DNA of 61,206 bases, taken from the IMG/VR virus record IMGVR_UViG_3300030109_000544, positions 481-61,686 of that record. One strand, written 5' to 3'. The translations under genes were made by a program, and so were the position numbers. The notes below the pieces were generated by a model. The model was not told the origin of the DNA. It searched no databases and saw nothing but the letters and a program-made list of their open reading frames with translations. The DNA is from a virus. Positions 18,317 to 44,300 of this stretch are shown here, piece after piece (the stretch's first letter is position 1; each line of letters opens with the position of its first letter).

Positions 18317-18420
18317 CAGATACTGTCAAAACATCTATGGCAATTCACGTCTAAATATGTTTTAGTATAATCATCGAACGGGGCAATCAAGCCCCTCGAT
18401 ATGATCTTGAAAGGATCACA
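18317..18420 (+). promoter_or_regulatory. Promoter and leader, copy 1 of 2
   Basis: It contains an upstream box (18317-18337, core ACTGTCAAAACATCTA), 28 bp, then a perfect TATAAT -10 (18366-18371) with no good -35, suggesting an activator-dependent promoter. The leader folds as ATCATCGA...GGGGC-AATCAA-GCCCC...TCGATATGAT, followed by the ribosome site AAAGGA and ATG at 18423. A second copy with the same spacing lies at 19270-19378. Confidence 0.7.
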
Positions 18421-18422
18421 CT

Positions 18423-19138: not shown

Positions 19139-19216
19139 GATGCCAGTTCTCAAGGGCGCGGCGAGCCAAGGACCATCCAGCCATGCGATGCCAGTTCTCA
19201 AAGGCGCGGTGAGCCA
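19139..19216 (+). repeat. 30-bp direct repeats, family B, copies 1-2
   Basis: Two 30-bp copies (19139-19168 and 19187-19216) separated by an 18-bp unrelated spacer. They share CCAGTTCTCAA and GGCGCGG(C/T)GAGCCA and differ at only two positions. The same family recurs at 19943-20082 with the same 48-bp period. Non-coding; probable protein-binding or RNA element. Confidence 0.8.
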
Positions 19217-19222
19217 ACGAAT

Positions 19223-19240
19223 GTTAGTCCACGGACTAAC
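19223..19240. repeat. 18-bp inverted repeat, family A, copy 1
   Basis: GTTAGTCCACGGACTAAC: 8-bp arms around a 2-nt centre, 6 bp after B repeat 2 and just upstream of the second promoter/leader. Likely an operator or RNA hairpin shared by at least five downstream genes. Confidence 0.9.
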
Positions 19241-19269
19241 AAAATATATCAGATAATGCGCCCGCGTAG

Positions 19270-19378
19270 CAGATACTGTCAAAACATCTACAGACAAACG
19301 CGCTGAAATATGTTCTTATACAATCATCGAAACGGCCAATACCGGCGAATTCGATATGATCTTGAAAGGATCACACAA
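19270..19378 (+). promoter_or_regulatory. Promoter and leader, copy 2 of 2
   Basis: The upstream box (19270-19290) is identical to that at 18317-18337. The -10 is TACAAT (19319-19324), again 28 bp downstream. The leader keeps the outer stem ATCATCGA...TCGATATGAT and the identical GATCTTGAAAGGATCACAC ribosome-site block, but its inner stem sequence differs (CGG/CCG instead of GGGGC/GCCCC), which supports RNA structure. ATG follows at 19379. Confidence 0.7.
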
Positions 19379-19888
19379 ATGGTTGATACCATTTATACGG
19401 CTGCGAAGGCATATGGCTCCGCAGAAAACAAAAGCGCCAACAGCAAAAAGGCGCTTGTTGATACCCTAGTCGCCGAGGGCGTGAAACCGGGGTTTAACAA
19501 ACAGCAAGATTTGGGCGATGGCAAAAAAGGCTATATCCCTGCTGCTGTTTCAGTACGCGAGGGTCTGGTTGCTAGTTGGGGTAAATCAGCCGTTCGCTTA
19601 TACAATACGGACACGAAAGAACTGTCCGATGTGGAAAGCGCCGAGAAACGCTATATCACGAAACAGCTCGGCACTCGGATGCGAAAACTTAACATCGCGC
19701 TGGATGAACGCCTTAATCCGGTCGAGCGTGGACCGGTCGAGCGTAAACCGGATGATGTTTGGTTGCGCGATGCCTTCAACGCTTTCGTCAAACGCGTTGA
19801 AAGTTCCGAAGGCGCGGGTGATCTTGATCTTGTCGAGATCATGGAGTGGTTGAAGAAATCGCCGCTCAATACTTTCCAACCAAAATAA
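19379..19888 (+). CDS. Unknown 169-residue protein
   Basis: ATG at 19379 follows the second leader and its AAAGGA site. The protein begins MVDTIYTAAKAYGSAENKSA and contains ALVDTLVAEGVKPGFNKQQD, GYIPAAVSVREGLVASWGKS, YITKQLGTRMRKLNIALDER and a C-terminal helix DLDLVEIMEWLKKSP. It is helical, soluble and charged. No family recognised; DNA binding is possible but not shown. It is a single-gene transcription unit: own promoter and a strong intrinsic terminator directly after. Placed between the two B-repeat clusters, it is a candidate to act on the adjacent repeats (inference). Confidence 0.65.
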   Translation: MVDTIYTAAKAYGSAENKSANSKKALVDTLVAEGVKPGFNKQQDLGDGKKGYIPAAVSVREGLVASWGKSAVRLYNTDTKELSDVESAEKRYITKQLGTRMRKLNIALDERLNPVERGPVERKPDDVWLRDAFNAFVKRVESSEGAGDLDLVEIMEWLKKSPLNTFQPK

Positions 19889-19901
19889 CTCTCCACAAAC
19901 T

Positions 19902-19932
19902 GGGTCGGCCCTTCTGGGTCGGCCCTTTTTTT
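19902..19932 (+). terminator. Intrinsic terminator
   Basis: GGGTCGGCCC-TTCT-GGGTCGGCCC followed by seven T. In RNA the two arms pair over 10 bp (two G-U pairs) with a 4-nt loop and a U-tract: a textbook terminator, 13 nt after the stop codon. Confidence 0.88.
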
Positions 19933-19942
19933 GTGCCTTTTT

Positions 19943-20082
19943 GAAACCAGTTCCTACGGTCGCGGCGAGCCAACGCGCTGTGTCACGTTTGACGCCAGTT
20001 CCCACGGTCGCGGTGAGCCACACACTTGTTAGTCCGTGGACTAACATCTTTTGAAACCAGTTCTTTCGGTCGCGGTGAGCCA
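19943..20082 (+). repeat. 30-bp direct repeats, family B, copies 3-5
   Basis: Copies at 19943-19972, 19991-20020 and 20053-20082. Consensus GA--CCAGTTC, five variable bases, G-CGCGG(C/T)GAGCCA. Copies 3 and 4 are separated by exactly 18 bp, as are copies 1 and 2. Between copies 4 and 5 the gap is 32 bp and holds an 18-bp inverted repeat (20028-20045). No coding potential. Confidence 0.82.
20028..20045. repeat. 18-bp inverted repeat, family A, copy 2
   Basis: GTTAGTCCGTGGACTAAC, the copy with a GT centre, placed between B repeats 4 and 5. Confidence 0.9.
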
Positions 20083-20096
20083 CTACACGCACACGT

Positions 20097-20114
20097 GTTA
20101 GTCCACGGACTAAC
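20097..20114. repeat. 18-bp inverted repeat, family A, copy 3
   Basis: GTTAGTCCACGGACTAAC, 14 bp after B repeat 5 and directly bordering the octamer array. Its first bases overlap a 14-bp element CGCACACGTGTTAG (20088-20101) that recurs at 20442-20455. Confidence 0.9.
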
Positions 20115-20115
20115 A

Positions 20116-20482
20116 TAATGTTCGCACCTAACACGTTGATATATAAGCAATGTTCGGGTTTTCGCGTGTAATGTTCCGTAATGTTCTGTAGCGTGAGTAC
20201 ATTATGTATACGTAGCAATTCATAACTGCGTGTGACAGCTATTAGCAATACATGCCTATTAATATATAGCAATCTGTTACATATCTTAATAGTAGTTGTA
20301 ATGTTCTCTTTTAGAAATAGGATAAAACTTTATTTGAAAGGGGGTGGCGCGGATTCCTCAAACCACCCAACCCAAAATATGACCCTCCAATTTCTCCAAA
20401 AACAGAACATTAGAACATTCCAAGCATTACAAAGGCTTACGCGCACACGTGTTAGAACATTACAGTACATTACAGAACATTG
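20116..20482. other. Candidate replication origin / iteron array
   Basis: This is the core of a 705-bp gene-free region (19889-20593). TAATGTTC occurs at 20116, 20169, 20179 and 20299 (CAATGTTC at 20148). The reverse form GAACATTA occurs at 20405 and 20455, with one-base variants at 20413, 20465 and 20475, plus GTACATTA at 20197. Neighbouring copies are often exactly 10 bp apart (20169/20179; 20455/20465/20475), one helical turn. The forward copies lie left and most reverse copies right of an AT-rich segment (20310-20345). CGCACACGTGTTAG flanks the array at 20088 and 20442. This is the arrangement expected for an initiator- or regulator-bound origin; function is inference. Confidence 0.6.
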
Positions 20483-20518
20483 CGCGTTTACTCACAAACT
20501 AACACCTTTACACATTAC

Positions 20519-20547
20519 TTGACTTAGATAGCTATATTTGCTATTAT
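20519..20547 (+). promoter_or_regulatory. Sigma70-type promoter for the DUF3150-MoxR-VWA operon
   Basis: TTGACT (20519-20524), 17-bp spacer, TATTAT (20542-20547): near-consensus boxes at ideal spacing, 46 bp upstream of the ATG at 20594. It is the clearest host-type promoter seen in the window and should fire early. Confidence 0.75.
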
Positions 20548-20593
20548 ATTGATAGTTGATGAATTGGTCATCAACACATACAGGAGAAGACAG

Positions 20594-21571
20594 ATGAACA
20601 CACTTGTTAACACGTTACCACAAACCGACGAGAATCTCGGCGGGGCGGCAGCTATGGGTACACAAGAAGATGTTAGTCCACGGACTAACAATGTTCCGCA
20701 GGTGGACGCACCTTCTATCGCATCCAGCGCGATGTTGTCAGAACTGTCCATATCGCAGTGGACCGGTCGCAAGAAAGACCGCAAGGCATCCAAAGATGTG
20801 ACCGCCGACAACAATGCCGAAACCGGTGTAGCCAACGTCAACAAGAAGTTGCTGGGCAACTGCGCCGAACTCGAAGCGGTACACAAGCTGACGGGTAACA
20901 TCCGCAACATCCACTATGGCATGACAATGCCGTGGTCGGACACGGGGTTGCGTCTGCTACCGACAGCGCAGTACTTCAAGTACCACAACGCCATGACTGA
21001 CCTAGAGAACCAGTGGCGTGCGGCGACTAACACGTTCCTGTCATCATATCAGTGGGAGATCAGCCAAGCGCAGGCCAAGCTGGGTGATCTGTTCGACGTT
21101 AGCGAGTACCCGACGACCGACGCGCTGACCACCAAGTTCGGGTTCAACCTCAACTATATCCCGCTACCCGACGCGGGTGACTTTCGTATCGACGTTGGCA
21201 ACGACGCGGTGGCCGAGGTCAAGTCCAGCTACAACGACTACTACAGCAGGCAACTGACCAAGGCAATGAACGACGTGTGGACACGTTTACACGATGCGCT
21301 CACACGCATGTCGGAACGGTTGGACTACGGCGAGAACGACGACAAGCGGGTGTTCCGCGATACGCTCGTCAGCAACGTGACCGACATGGTTGACTTGCTC
21401 GATGTATGTAACGTCACGGGCGACACGCAGATGACCGCCATGCGTGAAAAGTTGTCTGACGCCATGTACGGCGTGACCGCCGAGGTGCTACGCGAAGATG
21501 CACACACGCGCATCGAAACCAAGCGCACGGTGGATGAGGTTATATCGTCGCTTCCTAGCTTGGAGGTGTAA
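20594..21571 (+). CDS. DUF3150-like protein
   Basis: A 325-residue protein with AGGAGA 6 nt before its ATG. From residue ~55 it follows the DUF3150 pattern: LSISQWTGRKKDRKASKDV, VNKKLLGNCAELEAVHKLTG, MPWSDTGLRLLPTAQYFKYH, AKLGDLFDVSEYPTTDALTT, FNLNYIPLPDAGDFRIDVGN, then a helical region (DVWTRLHDALTRMSERLDY). The N-terminal ~50 residues are low-complexity, and codons 27-32 consist of an 18-bp inverted repeat. DUF3150 genes typically sit beside MoxR ATPase and VWA genes, exactly as here. Biochemical role unknown; probably a partner or substrate of the AAA+ module. Confidence 0.8.
   Translation: MNTLVNTLPQTDENLGGAAAMGTQEDVSPRTNNVPQVDAPSIASSAMLSELSISQWTGRKKDRKASKDVTADNNAETGVANVNKKLLGNCAELEAVHKLTGNIRNIHYGMTMPWSDTGLRLLPTAQYFKYHNAMTDLENQWRAATNTFLSSYQWEISQAQAKLGDLFDVSEYPTTDALTTKFGFNLNYIPLPDAGDFRIDVGNDAVAEVKSSYNDYYSRQLTKAMNDVWTRLHDALTRMSERLDYGENDDKRVFRDTLVSNVTDMVDLLDVCNVTGDTQMTAMREKLSDAMYGVTAEVLREDAHTRIETKRTVDEVISSLPSLEV
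20672..20689. repeat. 18-bp inverted repeat, family A, copy 4 (inside coding sequence)
   Basis: GTTAGTCCACGGACTAAC is in frame and encodes V-S-P-R-T-N at residues 27-32 of the DUF3150-like protein, within a low-complexity N-terminal extension. Confidence 0.9.
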
Positions 21572-21572
21572 C

Positions 21573-21743
21573 GTGCGAACCTTCCAGAACTTCCTGATTG
21601 TGATCGCGGTCGGCGTGTTGCTGGCCGTGGTCATGTTGGAGACACTAACCGGATGCGGTGAACGCACCTACTTCGAAAACCGCACTTGGGTGACGGGCGA
21701 GTGCCTGTTCATCCCGTACACCCCGACAGTGGGTCGGTGGTAA
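21573..21743 (+). CDS. 56-residue membrane protein
   Basis: A GTG at 21573 follows a strong TTGGAGG site (8-nt spacing) at the very end of the DUF3150 gene. The peptide, (M)RTFQNFLIVIAVGVLLAVV, MLETLTGCGERTYFENRTWV, TGECLFIPYTPTVGRW, has one transmembrane helix (residues ~6-24) followed by a short external tail with two Cys residues. LTGC resembles a lipobox, so lipoprotein processing is conceivable but unproven. It lies inside the DUF3150-MoxR operon and ends 4 bp before an inverted repeat. Confidence 0.6.
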   Translation: MRTFQNFLIVIAVGVLLAVVMLETLTGCGERTYFENRTWVTGECLFIPYTPTVGRW

Positions 21744-21747
21744 ACTT

Positions 21748-21765
21748 GTTAGTCCGCGGACTAAC
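21748..21765. repeat. 18-bp inverted repeat, family A, copy 5
   Basis: GTTAGTCCGCGGACTAAC (GC centre), 21 nt upstream of the MoxR start codon. The sequence after it, ACACAGCAATAGGAGAACTA, closely matches that after copy 7, so the palindrome and ribosome site form one repeated unit. Confidence 0.9.
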
Positions 21766-21786
21766 ACAGCAATAGGAGAACTACCA

Positions 21787-22881
21787 ATGACTACCGCAGA
21801 AACAATGTACGCTCTGAACCTCGACCAGATCGCCACCGCCATACGTACAGGTGGCAACAAGCGCACTATCTTGGTGCAGGGGCACATGGGTACAGGCAAG
21901 TCATCACTGCTGAACATGCTATCAGATGAGTTGCCAGATCATGCAGCCTGTTACTTCGATTGTACCACCAAGGATTTGGGCGACATCACAATACCGAATC
22001 TTGCCAAGATGGAGGATGGCACGGGGTATGTGTCGTACCTGACCAACGAAGAACTCGGCGCACACCTCGACAAGCCAATCATCCTCATGGTTGACGAGTA
22101 TGGCAAGGCCAACCCAGCGGTCAAGAACGCGATGCTGCGCCTCATGCTGGAGCGCAAGATCGGTAGCTACACGCTACATCCTGACTCGTTAGTATTTGCC
22201 ACTACCAACCTCGGCGCGGAGGGTGTCGGTGATCTGTTGCCGCCACACGCACGGAACCGCATCACCGTCATCACCATGCGTAAACCTGACAACATGGAAT
22301 GGATAGAATGGGGGATTAACAATGAGATCGACCACACGCTACTCGGGTGGTGCAAAGATAACCCACAGTTATTCGCGGGATTTGAGGGCGTCAAAGACCC
22401 CGAAGAAAACCCCTACATCTATCATCCCCGCGAACAACGGACAGCGTTCGTCACACCCCGCTCGTTGGAAGCAGCCTCGGACTGGCTCAAAGAAAGGGCA
22501 TCGTACGACGACCAAACGCTGACCGGTTTGCTTATGGGTACCATCGGCGCACGTGGTGCGATGGACCTGATGGCTTTCGTCAAGCTGGCCGATCAGTTGC
22601 CATCACTCGAAAGTATCAAGCAAGACCCGCAGAACGCCAAGGTTCCCGAAAGCGCGAGCGCCGTCTGCATGGTGGTGTATCGCACACTGGCAAGTCTGGA
22701 GAAAGATTGGGTCAACCCGTGGATGGACTACATGGTGCGTCTCGACAAGGAAGCGCAGGGTATGTTCGCCAACGGTGTCCGTGCGCCCAAGTACTCCAAG
22801 CAATCAATGGTGATGACCAACAAGAAGTTCACCGATTGGGCTATGGCGAACAACTATATGTTCGCGGCGGACAAGAAGTAA
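21787..22881 (+). CDS. MoxR-type AAA+ ATPase
   Basis: A 364-residue AAA_5/MoxR-like ATPase. Walker A is GHMGTGKSS (residues ~38-46), Walker B is IILMVDEYGKA (residues ~99-109), and sensor 1 is LVFATTNLG (residues ~136-144), followed by HARNRITVITMRKPD, a possible arginine-finger and linker region. The C-terminal lid reads FVTPRSLEAASDWLKE. MoxR ATPases work as chaperone-like motors with VWA-domain partners, and this gene is directly followed by a VWA gene. An AGGAGA site lies 7 nt upstream of ATG. Substrate unknown. Confidence 0.88.
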   Translation: MTTAETMYALNLDQIATAIRTGGNKRTILVQGHMGTGKSSLLNMLSDELPDHAACYFDCTTKDLGDITIPNLAKMEDGTGYVSYLTNEELGAHLDKPIILMVDEYGKANPAVKNAMLRLMLERKIGSYTLHPDSLVFATTNLGAEGVGDLLPPHARNRITVITMRKPDNMEWIEWGINNEIDHTLLGWCKDNPQLFAGFEGVKDPEENPYIYHPREQRTAFVTPRSLEAASDWLKERASYDDQTLTGLLMGTIGARGAMDLMAFVKLADQLPSLESIKQDPQNAKVPESASAVCMVVYRTLASLEKDWVNPWMDYMVRLDKEAQGMFANGVRAPKYSKQSMVMTNKKFTDWAMANNYMFAADKK

Positions 22882-22894
22882 GGAAGGATAAATT

Positions 22895-22915
22895 AGGGCT
22901 AACCGGGTTAGCCCT
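22895..22915 (+). terminator. Hairpin after the MoxR gene
   Basis: AGGGCTAACC-G-GGTTAGCCCT: 10-nt perfect inverted repeat, in RNA an 8-bp stem with a 5-nt loop, 13 nt after the stop codon and abutting the next 18-bp inverted repeat. No U-tract. Probable attenuator or processing site within the operon. Confidence 0.65.
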
Positions 22916-22916
22916 A

Positions 22917-22934
22917 GTTAGTCCACGGACTAAC
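22917..22934. repeat. 18-bp inverted repeat, family A, copy 6
   Basis: GTTAGTCCACGGACTAAC, immediately after the MoxR hairpin and 59 nt upstream of the VWA gene start codon. Confidence 0.9.
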
Positions 22935-22993
22935 ACGTGCTGGTGTGGGGTGGTACCCACACCGGCGGAAAGTCACCCACTAGGAGAATGACA

Positions 22994-24187
22994 ATGTTAT
23001 CAATAGGTAAAGAACTAACCACGGAGCAGCGTGTATCCAAGTCCGTGGTCGATATCATGGGCAACGACAAGTATGTTGCGTTGGCCGGTATCCTGATGCT
23101 CGGTGAGCGCACGGTGGTGGACGACATACCCACCGCTTGCACGAATGGTCGTGATGAGATGTACGGCAGGGAGTTTGTGGATGGGTTGACTGACCCCGAA
23201 CTAAGGTTCCTCGTACTGCACGAAAGTTACCACAAGCTGTACCGACACCTCACCACGTGGCAGCATCTATACAAGCAAGACCCGCAACTTGCAAACTCAG
23301 CCTGTGACTACGTTATCAACCTCAAGATCGCGGACGACAATACGGATGGGTTCGCGGTCATGCCTAAAGACGGGTTGCTGGACAACAAGTTCAGAGGCAT
23401 GGACAGCGCACAGGTCTACAACATCCTCAAGCAAGACCAAGATGAGAACGGAGGTGACGGTGGGGGTGGTTCCTCCGGTGGCTTTGACGAGCATGATTGG
23501 GATGGCGCACAAGAACTCAGCGAGACAGAACAACGCGAACTCGCCCGTGATATTGACGAAGCCATACGTCAGGGTGCGTTGATCGCTGGCAAGCTGGGCA
23601 ACGGTGCCGACCGTAGCATCACCGATCTACTCAAGCCACAGATAGATTGGCGCGAAGTCATGCGCGAGTTTATCACCACGACGTGCGCGGGTAATGACTA
23701 CTCCACATGGAAACGTCCTAACAGGCGCTACATCTCCTCGGGAGTCTATATGCCGAGTGGTATCTCCGAGAGTGTCGAGGGGATCGTGGTTGCCGGTGAT
23801 ATGTCTGGCTCCATTGGGCAACGTGAGCAAGCGGTCATACTCACCGAGGCCAAGTCGTGCTTCGATACCGTATCACCCAACTGGGTGCGTATGATGTACT
23901 GGGACACGGAAGTGTGTTCTGACGAGATGTACGAGCAGCACGAACTCGACGACTTTATCAAGTCTACCAAGCCGGTCGGCGGTGGTGGCACCAATGTCGA
24001 GTGTGTACCAGCGCACATAACCAAGCATGGCATCAAGGCACAAGCCGCGATTGTTATCACTGACGGATATCTTGGTGGTTCGTGGGGTCGTTGGGATTGC
24101 CCCGTGTTATGGGTTATACTTGACAATGAGAACGCCAAGCCAGATCACGGTACAGTGATCCATGTCAAAGGGAGGGACTTAGTATGA
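22994..24187 (+). CDS. Metallopeptidase-like and VWA-domain protein (DUF2201 type)
   Basis: A 397-residue protein; the ATG at 22994 is 7 nt after AGGAG (an ATG at 22988 is too close). The N-terminal ~130 residues hold LRFLVLHESYHKLYRHLTTW with an HExxH motif typical of zinc metallopeptidases, followed by NSACDYVINLKIAD. A Gly/Asp-rich linker (residues ~150-170) leads to a C-terminal VWA-like domain: GIVVAGDMSGSIGQREQAV contains the DxSxS MIDAS motif, with later GGGGTNVE (MIDAS Thr) and IVITDGYLGG. This two-domain arrangement is that of DUF2201 proteins, partners of MoxR ATPases. It overlaps the next gene by 4 nt. Confidence 0.85.
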   Translation: MLSIGKELTTEQRVSKSVVDIMGNDKYVALAGILMLGERTVVDDIPTACTNGRDEMYGREFVDGLTDPELRFLVLHESYHKLYRHLTTWQHLYKQDPQLANSACDYVINLKIADDNTDGFAVMPKDGLLDNKFRGMDSAQVYNILKQDQDENGGDGGGGSSGGFDEHDWDGAQELSETEQRELARDIDEAIRQGALIAGKLGNGADRSITDLLKPQIDWREVMREFITTTCAGNDYSTWKRPNRRYISSGVYMPSGISESVEGIVVAGDMSGSIGQREQAVILTEAKSCFDTVSPNWVRMMYWDTEVCSDEMYEQHELDDFIKSTKPVGGGGTNVECVPAHITKHGIKAQAAIVITDGYLGGSWGRWDCPVLWVILDNENAKPDHGTVIHVKGRDLV

Positions 24188-24600
24188 TGGAGGCACTCGC
24201 CTGTATCGCACTTGCTGTGTACTTCGAGGCGCGGGGTGAACCCATAGCGGGGCAGCTAGCTGTAGCCAACGTGGTTATGAACCGAGCTAGATCCAGCAAG
24301 TACCCTGACACACCGTGTGAAGTTGTCACGCAAGGTCCAACCTATGTTGGATCTACGCATCCAGTAAAGCATCGGTGTCAGTTCAGTTTCTATTGTGATG
24401 GTAAGCCAGAGAAGATAACCGACCACGATGCTTGGCTTACCGCCATGCGGGTAGCTACCGCTGTCAGGGATACCAGTTCCCAACACCTCGACGTGTCAGA
24501 AGGTGCTACCCATTATCATACTACCGAAGTATCTCCGAGGTGGAGATACACAATGCGTGTGACTGTCCAGATCGGCCAGCACATATTCTACAAGCCCTAG
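24184..24600 (+). CDS. SleB-like cell wall hydrolase
   Basis: A 138-residue protein matching the Hydrolase_2/SleB catalytic domain: ALAVYFEARGEPIAGQLAVA (with the catalytic Glu in FEARGE), NVVMNRARSSKYPDTPCEVV, CQFSFYCDG, then HDAWLTAMRVATAVRD and GATHYHTTEVSPRW. Such enzymes are lytic transglycosylases cleaving peptidoglycan glycan strands. No clear signal peptide is present, so access to the wall would need a holin or virion incorporation. It is translationally coupled to the VWA gene (ATGA) and lies in the early plus-strand operon, far from the lysis cassette. Confidence 0.85.
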   Translation: MMEALACIALAVYFEARGEPIAGQLAVANVVMNRARSSKYPDTPCEVVTQGPTYVGSTHPVKHRCQFSFYCDGKPEKITDHDAWLTAMRVATAVRDTSSQHLDVSEGATHYHTTEVSPRWRYTMRVTVQIGQHIFYKP

Positions 24601-24612
24601 AAGGAGGCAAAC

Positions 24613-24831
24613 ATGAAAGACCTAAAGACCCACAGTGAGAAAACCTCACACGAAATCACCGTCGAAATGGCAAGAGAGGTGACCAGAGATTGGTCCGAGG
24701 CTTGCCGTTGGGTGGAACACGCAGTCAAGCGTGAGGCCGAACGCCTCATGCACGAAGGTAACCTATCACCCGAAGCGTTCCTGAAGGCCGAGACACTACG
24801 TGCCGCATGGAAACGTGTTCAACACGGTTAG
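24613..24831 (+). CDS. Small helical protein, unknown function
   Basis: A 72-residue protein after AAGGAGG: MKDLKTHSEKTSHEITVEMA, REVTRDWSEACRWVEHAVKR, EAERLMHEGNLSPEAFLKAE. It is amphipathic, helical and charged. No family recognised. Its stop codon TAG is formed by the first half of the 18-bp inverted repeat at 24827-24844, so the repeat cannot vary freely on that side. Confidence 0.65.
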   Translation: MKDLKTHSEKTSHEITVEMAREVTRDWSEACRWVEHAVKREAERLMHEGNLSPEAFLKAETLRAAWKRVQHG

Positions 24832-24844
24832 TCCACGGACTAAC
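24827..24844. repeat. 18-bp inverted repeat, family A, copy 7
   Basis: GTTAGTCCACGGACTAAC; contains the stop codon of the upstream gene and ends 19 nt before the next ATG. Followed by ACACAACAAAGGAGAACTA, nearly the same unit as after copy 5. Confidence 0.9.
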
Positions 24845-24863
24845 ACAACAAAGGAGAACTAAA

Positions 24864-25751
24864 ATGGATACATTCACAGAAGTAGCGGCTCGATACAAAA
24901 CGATCCAACCGCTGGTAAGTAAACACCACACGCGGGAGGACGACATCCGACCGTTGGGTAGTCGTAGGCGTAAGTGGGAGCGTATCGCCAAGGTAGATGA
25001 GAACACATACATACTGCACGACAACCTAGGGGGTAGCTGGGGAGATCGGTATGTAGCGCGTCCACCGATAACGTGGCGTCGGAGAGGAGCGAACGAAGAA
25101 GTGACAATCCGCCCTGCCATTCGACCAGCTTACGACACATCACGTTTTCAGTTCTTGCGGAAGTATATGCCTTGGGGGTTGGACTTCGACAACCAAAACA
25201 CGTGGGGCCGACACAATGTCAATGGTGTGTTCATACCGCGACCCGAGTCCGAGTACGATACAACCGATTATCATCTTACGTTCCAACGTGTCGAAAAGAA
25301 GTCCGCGAAGAATGTATCCATAGAGAGTTGGGTGTGTATCACCGACCCGTGGCCCGAGATGCGCCCCACCGTGGACAAGGAGAAGAAGAAAGCCCTGCGT
25401 GGTGATATGGAGCAGTTCTATGAGTGGATGTGTTCGGTTGGTCCGTTGCTTGCAGTCAACGACTACAGTTTCTTACAACGCATCCGCGAGGAACTACAGG
25501 AACACGCTATACCACCTGATGTTTTCTCACAGTATGGTATAGAGTTTAACCCAAGACTTGCAACAGAGATTGTAAAGGATTATAATCATCCATTACGTAC
25601 GCATCTAGCTACTAGCTTTTTGCAACGGGAAGACATAAAATCTATCAGAACGATAGAAGATAAAAAGAAGTTCAGAGGACGATACAACAGTTGGGCAAAC
25701 AAGACGTTTGACCTTATGACCATGACCGCAAAGGAGGTTACCAATGACTAA
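24864..25751 (+). CDS. Unknown 295-residue protein (palindrome-linked)
   Basis: ATG at 24864 follows AAGGAGAACTAAA. The protein is soluble and charged: MDTFTEVAARYKTIQPLVSK, RRKWERIAKVDENTYILHDN, LGGSWGDRYVARPPITWRRR, FVPR-like beta segments and a C-terminal helical part (KKKFRGRYNSWANKTFDLMT). The N-terminal half looks like a small beta-rich domain (strand-turn-strand, residues ~35-75). No family recognised and no catalytic motif evident. Its C-terminal end overlaps the next gene by 8 nt, whose strong AGGAGG site is inside this gene, so the two proteins are probably made together. Confidence 0.7.
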   Translation: MDTFTEVAARYKTIQPLVSKHHTREDDIRPLGSRRRKWERIAKVDENTYILHDNLGGSWGDRYVARPPITWRRRGANEEVTIRPAIRPAYDTSRFQFLRKYMPWGLDFDNQNTWGRHNVNGVFIPRPESEYDTTDYHLTFQRVEKKSAKNVSIESWVCITDPWPEMRPTVDKEKKKALRGDMEQFYEWMCSVGPLLAVNDYSFLQRIREELQEHAIPPDVFSQYGIEFNPRLATEIVKDYNHPLRTHLATSFLQREDIKSIRTIEDKKKFRGRYNSWANKTFDLMTMTAKEVTND

Positions 25752-26649
25752 TTACAACCAAACCCCTACGGACGATCTTATCCCTATCACTGACATATCG
25801 TTAGCCCCTAGTTCTGCTCATCTTAGGATGTTTATGGGAAAGGTACGCGAGGTATACCCCCGCTGCCAATTTTCGTACGGTTCGAAAAACGGACCCAGCA
25901 GTGGGCGCGATCATCCCGGCAAGACCGTCTATGTCTACCATGATTGGAAGCCGCTCACTATGGGCAAAATAGGGTACGGCAATTTTCGTAACGAGGGGGG
26001 CGAAGATAACTTTATGGTCGCCTCCACGCAGATATCCAATGAGAAGTATGCGAGTTATAGCGACCAACATCATATGAAGATGACGAAAAACCATGAGGTG
26101 GCTATAGCTAATGCTAAGAAGTTTCTGCGTGATGTGCCTACTAAGGAACTTGCACAACACTTCGCACAAAACGTCCGTAACCAATGGTCCGAAACTAATA
26201 GTGGCCTAGAACAAACTATACAACAGACCTTCAACCAAGCCTTTGACTACTACAAAACCAAGGACACGGTGATCCGAGAACTGGAACACTTGGCGTCCAT
26301 TGGGCATGAGTGGTTAGCCCCAGAGTTTGCCGAAAAGATAAACCTGTTGTTGCGGACATACGCTGAGAAGATGGAAGCCGCACGGGAGCGATCACCTAAG
26401 ATTGTGATGGTGTCGGCAGAGAACCGCCCGTCCGGTGTTCGCTATGAACTCGCCAGCACGGAGGACATATCTGTGTATCGCGGAGACATAGAGTGGGTGC
26501 CTATTGCTAGTGTCGGTGAAGATGCGTTGTCACAAGAGTACCCTGATATTGTCGGTAAGCTAGCCATGCTACAGATGTGCAACGTAGATCAATGGGTAGA
26601 CGGTGTGGGGTGCCGAGTTACTTCTACGGTTCACTATGTTGCTGCTTAA
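25744..26649 (+). CDS. Unknown 301-residue protein
   Basis: ATG at 25744 follows AAGGAGGTTACCA, one of the best ribosome sites in the window. The N-terminus, ITDISLAPSSAHLRMFMGKV, leads to a region with HPGKTVYVYHDWKPLTMGKI and EDNFMVASTQISNEKYASYS. The middle is helical (AQHFAQNVRNQWSETNSGLE, FAEKINLLLRTYAEKMEAAR). The C-terminal ~90 residues look beta-rich (RYELASTEDISVYRGDIEWV). No family recognised. Translationally coupled to both neighbours. Confidence 0.7.
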   Translation: MTNYNQTPTDDLIPITDISLAPSSAHLRMFMGKVREVYPRCQFSYGSKNGPSSGRDHPGKTVYVYHDWKPLTMGKIGYGNFRNEGGEDNFMVASTQISNEKYASYSDQHHMKMTKNHEVAIANAKKFLRDVPTKELAQHFAQNVRNQWSETNSGLEQTIQQTFNQAFDYYKTKDTVIRELEHLASIGHEWLAPEFAEKINLLLRTYAEKMEAARERSPKIVMVSAENRPSGVRYELASTEDISVYRGDIEWVPIASVGEDALSQEYPDIVGKLAMLQMCNVDQWVDGVGCRVTSTVHYVAA

Positions 26650-26899
26650 TACGCCAGATGATAAGTTATACCGTGTTCAAGTACACGGTGTCACGAACGC
26701 TATCGAAGTATCATGTATTGGCATAGATAGGGTTGACGCGGAAGCGGAAGGCATGTATTGTTCCGCCGACGATCTGCCTTTGTGGCTTCAAGAACGGTTG
26801 GCGGTGCTGATGGTATCAAGTGCCAAACCGGTAACCAACATGATAGAGGGCGTAGGACGGCGTATAGATAAAACCACGTACTGGGTTATCAAACCCTAA
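26636..26899 (+). CDS. Unknown 87-residue protein
   Basis: ATG at 26636 lies inside the end of the preceding gene (14-nt overlap). The protein, MLLLNTPDDKLYRVQVHGVT, NAIEVSCIGIDRVDAEAEGM, YCSADDLPLWLQERLAVLMV, ends GRRIDKTTYWVIKP. It has an alternating strand/helix pattern, and its start shows no signal peptide. No family recognised. It is followed within 5 bp by an 18-bp inverted repeat. Confidence 0.65.
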   Translation: MLLLNTPDDKLYRVQVHGVTNAIEVSCIGIDRVDAEAEGMYCSADDLPLWLQERLAVLMVSSAKPVTNMIEGVGRRIDKTTYWVIKP

Positions 26900-26903
26900 C
26901 CAC

Positions 26904-26921
26904 GTTAGTCCACGGACTAAC
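26904..26921. repeat. 18-bp inverted repeat, family A, copy 8
   Basis: GTTAGTCCACGGACTAAC, the last copy, 59 nt upstream of the SspB-like start codon (the same distance as between copy 6 and the VWA start codon). Confidence 0.9.
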
Positions 26922-26980: not shown

Positions 26981-27484
26981 ATGGAAACATTATACAACAA
27001 AACCATAATGCAAGAGGGATACCATCGTCGTATGAGGGCCGCGTTCTGTTCGGTGATAGCGGGTTCGGTGGAGTGGATTGCAGAGATGGGCCTCAATAAA
27101 GATAGCAACGGCGTGTTTATAACCTTTGATGTAGATGCCAAGGGTGTGGAGATACCCGAATATCTGGGGGAGCAGTTTCCCGAAGGCATGACAATCATTC
27201 TACAACACCAATACGAAGACTTAAAATGTGATGATAACGGTTTTTCCGTTGTCCTAGTTTTCGACGGACAGCCGGTAAAAGTGCGCGTCCCTTGGGCCAG
27301 CATAATGGTGTATGCGGATGAAACATCAGAGTTCGCAATAGATATGACCGCTTACTTTGACGAGACCGGTCCAGTTAAGACCTATGGTGCGGCTATTTTG
27401 GCGACTGATTCCGGTGAGGATGAAGAAGCGGAGAGTAAGTACAAGAATAACGTGGTTCGATTGTTCCCAAGGGAGGGCGAGTAG
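26981..27484 (+). CDS. sspB: SspB-like ClpXP adaptor protein
   Basis: A 167-residue protein matching the SspB fold: an N-terminal helix (QEGYHRRMRAAFCSVIAGSV), GVFITFDVDAKGVEIPEYLG, EQFPEGMTIILQHQYEDLKC, GFSVVLVFDGQPVKVRVPWA, SIMVYADETSEFAIDM. The MTIxLQHQxxDL and VPxxxxxxxxDxSxxFxI patterns are characteristic, closest in style to alphaproteobacterial SspB. A ~35-residue acidic linker (DSGEDEEAESK) ends in NNVVRLFPREGE, placed like the C-terminal ClpX-binding tail of SspB. Host SspB delivers ssrA-tagged and other proteins to ClpXP; a phage copy could redirect proteolysis. Confidence 0.85.
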   Translation: METLYNKTIMQEGYHRRMRAAFCSVIAGSVEWIAEMGLNKDSNGVFITFDVDAKGVEIPEYLGEQFPEGMTIILQHQYEDLKCDDNGFSVVLVFDGQPVKVRVPWASIMVYADETSEFAIDMTAYFDETGPVKTYGAAILATDSGEDEEAESKYKNNVVRLFPREGE

Positions 27485-33230: not shown

Positions 33231-33620
33231 ATGAGCGGTAACCTAGACAAGTTGGTTAAGGTCTACCAAAAAATAAAGGCGAAGCGGAGCGAACTATCCG
33301 CTGAGTTCAAGGAGAAAGACGGTGAACTGCGAGAACAGCAGGACACCATAAAGAAGGCACTCCTAGACCACTGCAAAGAGCATGAAGTCGAGAGTGTACG
33401 AACCTCTGAGGGATTGTTTTACAGAACCGTTAAGACCCGTTATTGGACGAGTGATTGGGAGTCTATGTACAACTTCATTGAAGAGAATAATGTACCAGAA
33501 TTTCTCGAAAAGCGTCTAAACCAAGGCCACGTAAAGCAGTTTCTAGAAGAAAACCCCGAGTCTGTTCCACCGGGGCTAAACGTGGACAACGAATATATAA
33601 TTTCTGTTAGGAAGAAGTAA
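33231..33620 (+). CDS. Coiled-coil phage protein
   Basis: ATG at 33231 follows GGAGGTGCAA. The 129-residue protein begins MSGNLDKLVKVYQKIKAKRS, ELSAEFKEKDGELREQQDTI, KKALLDHCKEHEVESVRTSE: a long charged coiled coil (residues ~5-58) followed by a globular C-terminus (RYWTSDWESMYNFIEENNVP, FLEKRLNQGHVKQFLEENPE). This coil-plus-small-domain pattern recurs near phage recombination genes, with a weak resemblance to Gp157-type proteins. Function unknown. Its stop overlaps the next ATG. Confidence 0.65.
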   Translation: MSGNLDKLVKVYQKIKAKRSELSAEFKEKDGELREQQDTIKKALLDHCKEHEVESVRTSEGLFYRTVKTRYWTSDWESMYNFIEENNVPEFLEKRLNQGHVKQFLEENPESVPPGLNVDNEYIISVRKK

Positions 33621-38322: not shown

Positions 38323-38375
38323 GGGGCACAAGCTGCCCCAAACTTGCCCCCGCCCTAACCGGTGGGGGCTTTTTT
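38323..38375 (+). terminator. Terminator region between converging transcription units
   Basis: First, GGGGCA-CAAGC-TGCCCC (38323-38339). Second, a 9-bp stem GCCCCCGCC (38346-38354) pairing with GGTGGGGGC (38361-38369), followed by six T: an intrinsic terminator for the early unit. The stop codon of the opposing 2,296-residue gene lies in its T-tract, so on the minus strand it may act as a weaker, U-poor terminator. Confidence 0.85.
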
Positions 38376-41300
38376 ATGGGAAAATGTTAGTTAGGTTCCA
38401 CTCGTTCCTGCCCCAATAATCGTCTCGGTGGTTTTCAAGGGGGGCGCGTAGTTTTGGACTAATGGTGATGCCGTTATACATACCGGCTGTGGTATCGTAG
38501 TGCTTTAATAACGATTTAATAGCCGCTTTATTATCTATCATAAAGTAGGGGTGTCGCTCGTTGAAAGCATTCATTTCATCTAGCGCGTCTTGATACCCCT
38601 CACTATCACCCGTGTTATAGCTTATGTAGAGTTGTCTCAGTATGTTGGTCCTACGCTCGTTTGTAGCACGGTCTATATTTTTGGTACTCATGTTCCGTTC
38701 TTGTTCAAACGTCACCTTAGTAGGCGCGAAGCCAAAGAACTGGAACAGTAACTCCCCGCTGGTTATATCATCAGCAATAATATCCCCGCGCCGCGTTTTG
38801 GCCGCTCCTTCATCCCAATACCTGTAGGTCTTAAAGGCATTACGAACGGCGCTCGGAGACATGGTCTCTACACCACGGTAGAAACCCTTGCCGTCTATAA
38901 TATCGTTAAAGCCCCGGTACATTTGGGATGCAACGCTAACACCCGGTCCAGCAAACAACTCTGCGCCAACCTCAACCAGAGAACGATCTTTGTTGTACGG
39001 GTTCATTCGGAAAAGTAAGTTAGACAGACCAATACGATTAGCCACATCTACACCAAACAACGCATTAACGCCGCCTTTATACAGACCTTCCCCAAGGTAT
39101 TGACGAGCCGAAGTCTCGAAGTCTTCTTCATCTTCGTCACGGAACGCATTAGCTATCATGGCTACCGCCCCGTATATCGGCATCCCCTGCACACCAGCAA
39201 GCAAAAGCGAAGACGCCATTATACCTTTAAGTTGTCGGAACGCTGTTTGACTCATAGTTTTAGCTACGCCGTCAGATATACCCTGCTCTTTCAAGTTCCT
39301 AGGTAGATCCACAAGGAATGATTGGCGTGCGATCTTGAACATGGTGGCGTACATCTGGACCCCGAAGGTCTTGTACATCATTCCTATACGACCAAGCCCC
39401 TGTTGAGCGATGCGGGGGGCTGTAGCTAAGAACGCACCACCGTTCATTTCCTGCGTTCTAAATACTGCTTCGTTTGCAGCGGCAACTTCTTTTTCTCTCG
39501 CAGACATAGCTTTCTCGGCTTTGGTGGCTTTATCCGAGTTTAACCTGTTAAGTTCTAGGTTGTATGTTGCTACAAGGGCGACTTGGCGGTTGTACCGTTC
39601 TGCGTGGTGGAATATCCAAGCGGAGCCTGCGCTAATATAATCCATAGTTGTCTTGTCTCTACCAGACGTTTCTACGCCCATAGTGTCATAGAACATAGAG
39701 CGATTTAGTTGCCCTCTTGCCCCCGCAACTTCAACTAGGGTTTTGAGACTGTTAAGCCGGTCTATTTTCTTCTTGTCTTCCGGCTTGTTGGGGTCCAACC
39801 CTTTTAGCTTTTCGGGGCGTACAACAAGACTTCCATCTTCCATTGTGTCGAAATAGTTATCCATAGACCATGCAGCTTTAGCTTCTACGTCTGTCTTTGC
39901 GCTGCCTATGGTGCCTATTTTTCTCGTGCCGCCACTACCAGAGAACACAGTACTAGCGTCTCTTAGTGCGTGATAAGTTTCTGTGTAACCGTACTTACCG
40001 CCAAGAATAGGAGCCATCATAAGAGGTATTTGCGAGAGGTTTACCACAGCGGAAGATACGTTAAGACCTAGAGTACCCAAGAAAGCAAACCGGTTAACTT
40101 GAACTGCGAAACGGTTCATAGCATTCTTAGGTGGATTCTTTGCAAAACTGGCTCGCGCCATAAGTTCGTCAAAGATTATCTTTGTGTTTTCCTGATCCGT
40201 TGGGTTGTTCTCTTGGGCTGTACGGTACTCTTCATCCAAGCGTGCGGCTATCTCATCTATACTATTACCAGCCTTCATGCGTTGTATCTGAGCGGCCATG
40301 TTATAGCCTTTTTGCCGGAAAGCATCTTGTGCGTCCTGTATGAACCCGGTAGTACCCGCGCCTTCGTTACCTCGCCGAGATAACGATTTAGCGAAAGAGG
40401 ATTCCGGCAGGGCGTTCAAGAATAACTCCATGAACTCATTCTGCACATCAGCATCTACTTTATTGGCCTGAAGGGTCGCAAGAACTTGGCCTACAAACGC
40501 TGTGGCTGGTGCATCTTTACCAATGTTCTTAACAAGTTGGTCAGCGTTTTGATATTCGTTTATGGTAGAGACCTTTACGCCGCCGGGGCCATACCCATCA
40601 GCATCCTTGGTCTTGTTATCTTTCATAAGCTGCGCGACAAAGGATTTTCTGGCAGACGGACTTTCGAACGCCATCTGTACCATCTCTGGGTTACCTTGGG
40701 CATCTTTCGCCTCGAAACTAAGCCACAGATCGCCTTTACGTGTTAGTGGGAAGTACGGCTTTAGTCTGCCTTTCTCAAACAGCTTATCAAATATGTTCTT
40801 CTGTAGCTTCTCTTTCTGCGCGTCCGGTATGTCCAGATTGTTAATGCGTTCCGACAACACCGTTTTTAGCTCGTCAAACTGAGATAAATACGCATTCTCT
40901 AGGAGCTTGTACATTTTAGCCCCTTCTTTGCCTATCAGATCTTTATCTTTCTCCATGGCATCGTAGGCATCTCTTTCGGGCGTTCCCTTTTTGGGAGGCG
41001 TTTCGTATGGATGCACTTGGGCGCGGGTGCTTGCGTATACTAACCTGTCAAAAGCCTCTTTATGCTTCCTACCGGCAGATTTGAAATAGGCAGTTAGCTG
41101 CCTCATGGTGCCGTCTACGCGGGTTTCGGCGTTATTTATGTCCCCCTGAAGCCTATCTATGGCTTCGTATAAAGCCGGTCCAGAGTTTAGACCGAATGCA
41201 GGGGCGACATCTTGAGCGATAAGCTGCATGGGGGATACGTAGGCAAGAATCTTCTTCACCCGTGGCGAAGTAGTCCTGAGAAGGAATATATCCTTAAACC

Positions 41301-44300
41301 TATCTACAGTCCTTTGTCTGTCCGCTTTAGTGAATCTGTCGTTAAACGCTTGCTGTATAGCGTCTATATTCTTTCCTAACTTAGCTCGATTCAGGTACAG
41401 CATCCCGGCCCCACGAGACGATGGTGCGGGAGCGAGCATGGCTTCAATGAATATATCAGCTTGGTTTAGCGCCGAATCTATCGGTTTAGTTTGCATACCC
41501 AACATACGCCGTACAAAATTGCCGACCGTGTTGAAGAACCTTTGCAGCGCCGAAATCTGCGAGCCATCGGGCCTTAGTCCCGCAAGTTTTGTTTGGAACT
41601 CTGAGTTGCCAAAGGCTTCTGCTACAAACTCATCTAGGCTTTGTGCTCCGTAGAAAGTGTCTATCTGATCCTTAACACTATCGAATAGTTTCTGTAGCTG
41701 TTTGGTGACGGGGTGTGACTTATTAGCCAGTGTTGCAGAAGTCAGCGCGTGTGTAGTCTCATGTAGAATTGTATGCGGGTTGATACCAGTGTTTTCGTCG
41801 ATATAGATAGTGTTAGTTTTGGGATCAAACACACCGCTAACATCTACGTAAGTTAGCTCCGTCATGCGTTCTGTGGATAAAACCTCTACCTTGGTGTCAC
41901 CTAGCCTCTGCGCTAGTTTGCGGGCTACTTGGGATACGCGATTACTTGGGGACGTGATAGCAAGGGTTTGTAGTGCTTCTCTTAACTTGCCAGCACGCAA
42001 TAAGTTGTTGATTACCGGGTGAGCCGGTAGATCAAGACCCACAACCTCATAATCGAATAAATACTTATCAGTAGTAACGTCAATCCCTTCTTCAGCAATA
42101 ACATCATCAATGTTGATTTCGGACAGATCTTGCAGGGCGCGGTCATCTAGCTCGGCATCAACATAAGACTTAACTTGTTTCTCATTTGCTTCAAGGTAAG
42201 CGTCAGACATCGGAGAACGGCGTGGACCGGTTTCGGCAACAATATCTATGTCGGCGTCTGGGTTTAATTCGCCGCGAGTTAATGCCGCCTGTTCCGCAGC
42301 AATAAAATCATCCAGTTGTTTTACAGTAGCTGCATCAAGATTAGCCCGCGCCCAATTCAAAGCCCGCTTTGCGGTGGTTTTACCTTTGCCCGCCATATAT
42401 TGGTTTTCTGCGTCCACAAAAGCGCCTACGTCTTTCCTGTGCTGTTTGTTAGCGAACACAGCTTCGTGGGCTATTTCTTCTAGCGCCTCTATCGGATCTT
42501 CTTTCCTACCGAAGTAAGTTCTTGCTGCTGCTTTATCTTTGTCAGCGGCTGTTTCTCCTCGCTGTTCTGCGCGGGTACGTTTGGACCTAACAAGTTTGTC
42601 TACCTTGGCTACGTCGTTATCGGTAAAGGCTATCTCGCGTCTAGCCCAAGTAGGCTGTGCTTCCGTAAAGAATTTAAGATCAGACCGTTCTCCGACTTCT
42701 ATCTCAAGCTGCTTACTCTTAGGCGACGACTTGCGTTTCTTCCTACCAGAAGTACCTTCAGGCACAATGGTTACAGTGTTCCCGTCTTCGTCTACACGAG
42801 TTTCGAACGGTTTTTGAGTTTCAGCCTTCTTGGCAGCGGGCTTCTTGGCAGCGGGCTTCTTGGCAGCGGGCTTCTTGGCAGCGGGCTTCTTATCCGCAGC
42901 CTTCTTGGGTGTCGCCTTTTTGGCAGCGGGCTTCTTCTTAGGTCTTTTAGCCTCAACCTTCTTGCCGGGCTTTCTTTCGCGTTTTGCTTTAACTTGTTCC
43001 GCTGACTCTGCGCGTTCTAGTGCAACGAGTTCATCTCCCGTTCTTCTAACAGCTCCTCTAAGGTTATCCGCAGTAGTGTCCACTCCAGCGGCTGCAGGTG
43101 CTGCAGGTCCGGTGGTATCTGCGTCCACGGGAACGGCTTGTGGTACAGGATCGACATCGCCCGTTCTACCTGTTGGACGGTCAAGGCTGATAGACTCGAT
43201 TGGGTCTCCGAAAAGTTCCAGTTGCTCGACATCCTGCGTCCCTTCTGTTGCCTGTCCTTCCTGTTGTGTAGCTTGTTCTGATGTGGGTGTAGTAGCAACG
43301 TCACTTACTGGTGAAGCGGTGACCCTCTCGCCTGCAAGTAAACCTCTAATCTTTTGTTGTTTCAGTTGGTTAGCTTCTATTGCACGCGGCTGTTTAAGAC
43401 CTTGGGCATTCTTCTGTAGTGTTTCCAGTTGTTTTTGCAGCGTGTCTCGTGCGGGACCGGGGTTACCAACGTCCTGCCCCTTCAGTTCTTTTATTCTTTT
43501 CGGACCCCAAGCAAGGTCTTCTTCCGTAAGTATACGGCGGTTTCGACGTTGTTCCGCAGCAGTTTGGTCTGCGGTCTCTCTTTGGGCAGCAGCTTCAGCA
43601 CGTGCTTCTTGCCTTGTAGGCACAGGACCAACGGGGGGAGCATCATCACGTTGGGTTCGTGTAGCTGCAACAACATCTGTTGCTCTGTTAATAAGACTAT
43701 ATTCTTGTTGCGTGGGAGTGGTGTTTCCTATCCCCGCATCTGCAAGTGCATCAGAGAAACGTTGAGCAGTAGTGGTTCGACTTGCTGTTCCAAGATCAGT
43801 CAATACCGAATCTAGTACCTCACCGCGCCGTTGAGTTGTTTCTTGTTGTTGCTGAGTATCAAGTTGCCCCTCGATAGTTTGTAATTCGGATTCAGGGCGA
43901 AGCGTTTCGTCTACTGGGCCTTCTTGGGCGCGAGTAATTCTATCTTTTATCGCTTTAGCTTCAGCCGCCGCTTCCATTTCTTCTAGTTGGGCAGTTTCAG
44001 CGGCGTCAATAAAATCACCCTGCCGAGGATCAGGGGTAGTAGGGGGGCGTCTGCGGTTTTCTAGCTCTAATTCAACCTGTTCAGAAGTTAGTTCAATACC
44101 TTGAGCGGCGGCTTCTCTTTCAATATCTACACGTTCTTGTTCAACAGCAGCAGCTTCTTCGGCCCGTAGTTGCTCTACTAGACGAGCCATATCCGGGGCG
44201 CGTTCGGTTACAGTAGAAGAGGGGAACAACTCACCCTGTTCTTGACCTTCCCTAAGAGTAGGAACACCAGCGGGATCAACCGGATCAACAGAGTCATCAG

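Follow-up and report, generated by a model that had tools for sequence, protein, structure and literature searches.

Dispersed repressor sites and the palindromes of the window

Dispersed repressor sites have been described in phages. In the temperate Cluster A mycobacteriophages (L5, Bxb1, TipsytheTRex), the stoperators are 13-bp asymmetric sites whose orientation follows transcription; the repressor is a monomer with a helix-turn-helix (HTH) and a second domain (183 amino acids (aa) in L5), and both site words and repressors differ between heteroimmune groups (PMC9283540, PMC6550527). In SPbeta, a dispersed 15-bp repressor motif, SPBRE, lies in promoter regions and is read by MrpR, a protein with a tyrosine-recombinase fold (PMC10516654). 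Herein, we analyzed positions 481 to 61,686 of the IMG/VR virus record IMGVR_UViG_3300030109_000544 (61,206 nt, hereafter the window, in whose coordinates all positions are given), which carries eight copies of an 18-bp palindrome in an early region encoding MoxR, VWA and SspB-like proteins. The initial annotation regarded such a repeat-defined regulon as undescribed. As a kind it is not, since stoperators and SPBRE are known; literature searches for dispersed palindromes and for these genes returned known systems of this sort and no others. The site words, which differ by lineage, and a phage protein of which one residue covaries with one letter of the word point to a self-contained gene-control system that was previously undescribed.

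The window scan returned eight exact palindromes, GTTAGTCC-NN-GGACTAAC with 8-nt arms, far above chance (Table 1). Allowing up to three mismatches added no copy (shuffles: mean 0.31, maximum 3), and the full record of 61,686 bases holds the same eight and no more. The positions, the invariant arms, the confinement to this region and the centers (AC six times, GT once, GC once) were as initially annotated. The proposed purine-pyrimidine rule for the center applied to the window and failed in relatives, whose centers include TA and others. The spacing of copies 5 to 8 from start codons, given as 19–21 nt for two and 59 nt for the other two, was measured as 21, 59, 19 and 59 nt, respectively. Copy 4 lies within the coding sequence of the gene at 20594–21571, 78 nt past its start, and the stop codon of the gene at 24613–24831 is a TAG within copy 7. 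The array extends from just upstream of the gene at 19379–19888, whose product (the 19379 product) is our candidate reader of the sites, to the SspB-like gene.

The array resembles the Cluster A stoperators in having many copies of one short site concentrated at gene junctions, a phage-coded candidate reader of similar size with sites near its own gene, and a site word that differs between lineages together with the reader. Unlike stoperators, the sites are 17–18-bp dyads in a single early block, and the reader is a helical protein without a detectable HTH. The Cluster A phages are temperate; the window proteins scanned, not every small open reading frame (ORF) among them, included no integrase. 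Library searches showed no relation of the reader to an L5-type repressor, the L5 repressor itself not being directly compared. The SPBRE system is similar in that phage-specific dispersed sites precede several genes; these were later shown to be read by a single phage protein. It differs from the present array in that our sites lie at mid-operon junctions and our reader has no detected relation to MrpR.

The cultured Rhizobium phage RHph_TM3_14A (MN988472) carries its own dispersed 18-bp dyad, GTTACCTNNNNAGGTAAC, which occurs at 34 places (two mismatches or fewer) over 42 kb and at none in ten shuffles. As in the window, this dyad is multi-copy and often precedes start codons (several copies by 2–6 nt), and the phage has related MoxR, VWA and DNA polymerase genes; the DNA polymerase of the window shares no more than about 37% identity with that of RHph_TM3_14A and its relatives. 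Unlike the window palindromes, the RHph_TM3_14A dyad extends across 42 kb or more and also falls within coding sequences. No reader relative was detectable in RHph_TM3_14A (best E 0.18), and phage KPP25 had no comparable repeat.

Conserved places, changing words and the 19379 family

An exact scan of viral contigs for the 18-mer returned 46 stretches, most of which encode relatives of the early genes of the window (protein identity from about 27% upward). In bacterial genome contigs, six scattered single hits and no array were found. The initial annotation held that random placement in unrelated phages would speak against a regulon; the repeat was instead found to co-occur with the MoxR/VWA region. 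A MoxR protein scan of viral contigs returned 281 relatives, of which 80 were kept. All 80 contained a repeated palindrome in the early region, usually in 4–13 copies and with a common build of about 7-bp arms around a gap of usually 3–4 bp, whereas the arm words differed by lineage: GTTAGTC, GTTAGTG, GTTAGGG, TTTAGGG, TTTACGG, GTTATGC, TGTAGTG and GTTATAC. On re-testing, the top 7-bp arm occurred 3–13 times (median 6) with a gap of 3–4 in 77 of 78 contigs, as compared with 0–1 in the null of one dinucleotide shuffle per contig. The remaining contig had TTACGGA arms seven times with a gap of 2.

The places of the sites were conserved across these words. An orthologous site where the DUF3150 gene begins was present in every distinct genome (66 of 66, spanning seven palindrome types); the corresponding figures were 59 of 73 before MoxR, 45 of 76 before VWA and 0 of 36 before the DNA polymerase gene (polA). 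Genomes were told apart by MoxR sequence alone, and the relatives are mostly fragments, with many rows related to one another. Confinement to one block was also seen in those relatives searched that are complete or long. Site position is thus older than the word, which changes across the array. Nearly all copies switch to another word jointly and retain their places, which demands a reader acting in trans.

The best candidate for this role is the 19379 family. Of 55 contigs that extend to its position, 50 had a member and five gave weak matches there. The most conserved stretch, KRYxQQQIG[AS]RxxDFK, lies within a long helix (residues 84–112), and the predicted helical models of two members were confident (predicted local distance difference test, pLDDT, 92 and 93). 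Residue 103 was D in 35 of 35 readers whose arm base 7 is G and K or Q in 12 of 12 readers whose arm base 7 is C, counts that leave out one divergent row (L033) and two TTTACGG rows. It was the only one of 155 columns to separate G7 from C7 perfectly; the data used to find the column also served to test it. The mutual information with base 7 was 0.77 for residue 103 and 0.46 for the next reader column, whereas the best columns elsewhere reached 0.54 in DUF3150, 0.47 in MoxR and 0.33 in VWA, in genome sets that largely coincide with that of the reader but are slightly smaller. Three further proteins, for which no more than 2–3 C7 genomes were available, gave high but uninformative values. In a tree from which the motif columns had been excluded, three switches of base 7 are seen, each accompanied by a switch in the class of residue 103 (D versus K/Q). 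Contact of Asp with C, and of Lys or Gln with G, in the partner strand is common in protein-DNA recognition. Judged from these sequence comparisons, it is very probable that the 19379 family reads the palindromes as DNA sites.

Three binders had been proposed in the initial annotation, and the 19379 product is the one that the sequence evidence strongly supports. The recognition helix of the HTH protein encoded at 33620 is essentially the same in GTTAGTC, GTTAGTG, GTTAGGG and TGTAGTG genomes, and the 18819 product was detected, besides the window, in only three contigs (L009, L019 and L057), all near relatives; both were set aside.

The 19379 product itself had no PHROG match, and its family had scattered weak PHROG matches at most, no noteworthy match to Pfam or to PDB sequences and no Foldseek match. 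Fold searches with the two models returned weak, unrelated helical matches (best Z 5.4), which is not proof of a new fold. No relative was found in named phages for the one member searched (L104). In the searches made, the family was known from the uncultured viral contigs of this phage group only. Because of this restriction, and because no known fold was matched, the family may represent a new type of DNA-binding protein. Two reader-family genes each were observed in three contigs (L087, L088 and L073), and L087 also has palindromes with gaps of 4 and 5.

DNA or RNA, and the mode of action

The initial annotation left the choice between an RNA hairpin and a dimeric repressor. If the palindromes were RNA hairpins (7-bp stem, 3–5-nt loop) near the ribosome-binding site, a phage RNA-binding protein could bind them to control translation, mRNA processing or antitermination of the lambda N type. 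The stem would fold, and the position is that of a leader: among 446 distinct sites, start codons with a Shine-Dalgarno sequence cluster 12–22 nt past the site. The first-gene position of the reader also recalls lambda N behind nutL. In the lambda nut boxB/N pair, the dyads are specific to a lineage and correspond to the product of the first early gene; unlike the window array, boxB elements are RNA hairpins, two per genome, and are not found at every gene start. The variant sites argue against the hairpin. Single mismatches concentrate at arm position 6, and 16 of the 18 one-mismatch sites have RNA pairing broken by a non-GU mismatch, whereas stem pairing would be kept in the variants of an RNA hairpin regulator. 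Most of these sites consist of a GTTAGTG half and a GTTAGGG half, each a valid word of the family. As near-copies lose pairing yet retain valid half-sites, it would be the DNA that is read. In addition, the bases at the gap edge are conserved as complements in most types (A..T, C..G, AATT), as expected of a DNA dyad, half-site centers are 10–11 bp apart, about one helical turn, and Rfam had no family over the sites.

Flanking bases have a direction. A follows the site in 99% and T precedes it in 70%. With noncoding upstream flanks, this preference was largely gone (0.87 versus 0.83 for GTTAGTC, 0.61 versus 0.64 for GTTAGGG), with a residue in one group, GTTAGTG (A after in 0.99, T before in 0.80), which would suit a hairpin. 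Since the preference mostly reflects an upstream coding sequence that overlaps the site, it was set aside as evidence for RNA. Overall, we consider the hairpin quite unlikely, and of the two options a dimeric DNA-binding protein is favored.

We favor, as the probable reading of these sequence data, DNA operators bound by a dimer of the 19379 product and arranged as a stoperator-like block at gene junctions. Each palindrome would be a double-stranded operator of two 7–8-bp half-sites about one helical turn apart. The dimer, encoded by the first gene of the array, would insert helix 84–112 into DNA, with residue 103 reading arm base 7 (Asp for G, Lys or Gln for C). Once bound, it would stop elongating RNA polymerase, as stoperators do, and would thereby shut down or time the MoxR-VWA-SspB early block together with its own gene, in front of which a site also lies. 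Every lineage would hold its own matched site word and reader. We infer binding, dimerization, elongation block and biological timing from the site positions, the change of word by lineage, the universal reader gene, the residue-base covariation and the half-site logic.

The placement of the sites bears on how the bound protein would act. At many of the 446 distinct sites, the end of the upstream ORF falls within the palindrome or between −5 and +5 nt of it, and at 49 the TAG of the palindrome serves as the stop codon. No further strongly conserved element was found within 60 nt of these sites. Copy 4 lies downstream of the predicted promoter at 20519–20547. This combination of junction placement and a site past the promoter fits roadblocks and not operators that occlude a promoter. 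With sites located at junctions and, past the likely promoter, in the very first part of the leading gene of the operon, an elongation block is preferred, and we consider the roadblock or repressor mode slightly more probable than not.

The 19379 product could also be an activator or timing factor that switches on the early or middle block. Copies 2 and 3 do lie upstream of the predicted 20519 promoter, and T4 MotA is a middle-gene activator with short boxes. However, copies 4 to 8 are downstream of that promoter, and the junction sites have no strong promoter match, which makes an activator unlikely. Promoters of the N4 type, in which a virion-carried RNA polymerase reads DNA hairpins, would match the stem, the 3-nt loop and the position before early genes, and the MoxR protein has N4 gp24-like relatives. 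Against this, the 2296-aa and 1701-aa virion proteins gave no RNA polymerase motif or family match, in which a very diverged enzyme could still be present, and the site word covaries with the 19379 product instead. We regard this explanation as highly improbable.

Several observations weigh against a stoperator-like block read by the 19379 dimer. First, four contigs of one lineage (L005, L021, L100 and L102) have GTTAGTC sites on the left side of MoxR and GTTATGC sites on its right, and only one reader was found. These mosaic contigs suggest that site blocks are exchangeable by recombination. In addition, three independent switches of base 7 are few. The readers of TTTACGG have Thr at residue 103, with arm base 5 also changed and weak similarity, and the distant readers of L010, L016 and L033 align poorly around this residue; the residue code is therefore established, at the level of sequence, for the main clade alone. 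The reader model has no classical HTH and no likeness to a known DNA-binding fold. Finally, the residual flank preference of GTTAGTG is not needed by a symmetric dimer.

Genes around the array and implications

The gene order in the array is a hypothetical 169-aa protein (the candidate reader), a DUF3150-like protein, a MoxR-type ATPase, a DUF2201/VWA protein, a cell-wall hydrolase, further hypothetical proteins and SspB. To the right lie genes for a family A DNA polymerase, a PD-(D/E)XK nuclease, a SNF2-type helicase, an HTH_17 protein, a gp2.5-like single-stranded DNA-binding protein and a DUF927/primase protein. The opposite strand carries the late genes. No near DNA match to the window was found among named phages.

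Table 1. Palindromes, genes and predicted control elements of the array (window coordinates)
Feature	Position	Strand	Remark
Palindrome copy 1	19223..19240	.	Upstream of candidate reader gene and its likely promoter
Promoter-like leader of reader gene	19270-19376		Between copy 1 and gene
Candidate reader gene	19379..19888	+	169-aa all-helical protein; K103 in helix 84-112
Intrinsic terminator 3' of reader gene	19902..19932	+	10-bp stem, then T run
Palindrome copy 2	20028..20045	.
Palindrome copy 3	20097..20114	.
Predicted sigma-70-type promoter, 20594 operon	20519..20547	+	TTGACT-17-TATTAT, TG before -10; consensus match only
DUF3150-like gene	20594..21571	+	Weak match, under Pfam cut-off
Palindrome copy 4	20672..20689	.	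Counterpart site in 66/66 distinct relatives
Palindrome copy 5	21748..21765	.	21 nt 5' of MoxR start
MoxR-type AAA ATPase	21787..22881	+	phrog_1297
Palindrome copy 6	22917..22934	.	59 nt 5' of VWA start
DUF2201 metallopeptidase-like/VWA protein	22994..24187	+	phrog_1314
Palindrome copy 7	24827..24844	.	19 nt 5' of 24864 start
Gene 3' of copy 7	24864..25751	+	No family match
Palindrome copy 8	26904..26921	.	59 nt 5' of SspB-like gene
SspB-like gene	26981..27484	+	PF04386, 7e-22

Further elements were observed in the window. A second repeat family at 19139–20086 comprises five copies of about 34 nt (GANRCCAGTTC...GGKCGCGGYGAGCCA), which flank the reader gene and adjoin palindrome copies 1–3. The promoter and leader of the reader gene are duplicated: the segments at 18317–18421 and 19270–19376, upstream of a small ORF and of the reader gene, respectively, share repeats of 71 nt and 26 nt (76% and 100% identical). 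The interval 20115–20560 is A+T-rich and noncoding, with many iteron-like AATGTTC/GAACATT heptamers on both strands, and is a possible replication origin. On the minus strand, 9262–9314 matches the Rfam family Mu-gpT-DE RNA (RF03012, 74.8 bits) and adjoins a major head protein-like gene, and 38374–45264 encodes the 2296-aa virion protein, whose C-terminal part resembles the DarB-like antirestriction family phrog_10089 (5.6e-46).

We tentatively propose, as a possibility somewhat short of even, that the early block of this large, apparently lytic phage group is controlled by DNA-binding proteins of a new, sequence-specific family that lacks an HTH, through operator arrays in which all copies are rewritten as the specificity of the protein changes. 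The reader family may also be a source of orthogonal repressors. One phage group would provide dozens of natural pairs of operator word and reader, in which a rule of one residue for one base is testable. Two questions also become open to test: how the specificity of a regulator can shift jointly with that of its many scattered sites, and for what reason phages in which no lysogeny genes are detectable would keep lineage-specific operator words. If the proposal is true, the matched words would be regulatory types akin to immunity types, in phages that lack lysogeny, and one letter of each word would be set by residue 103.

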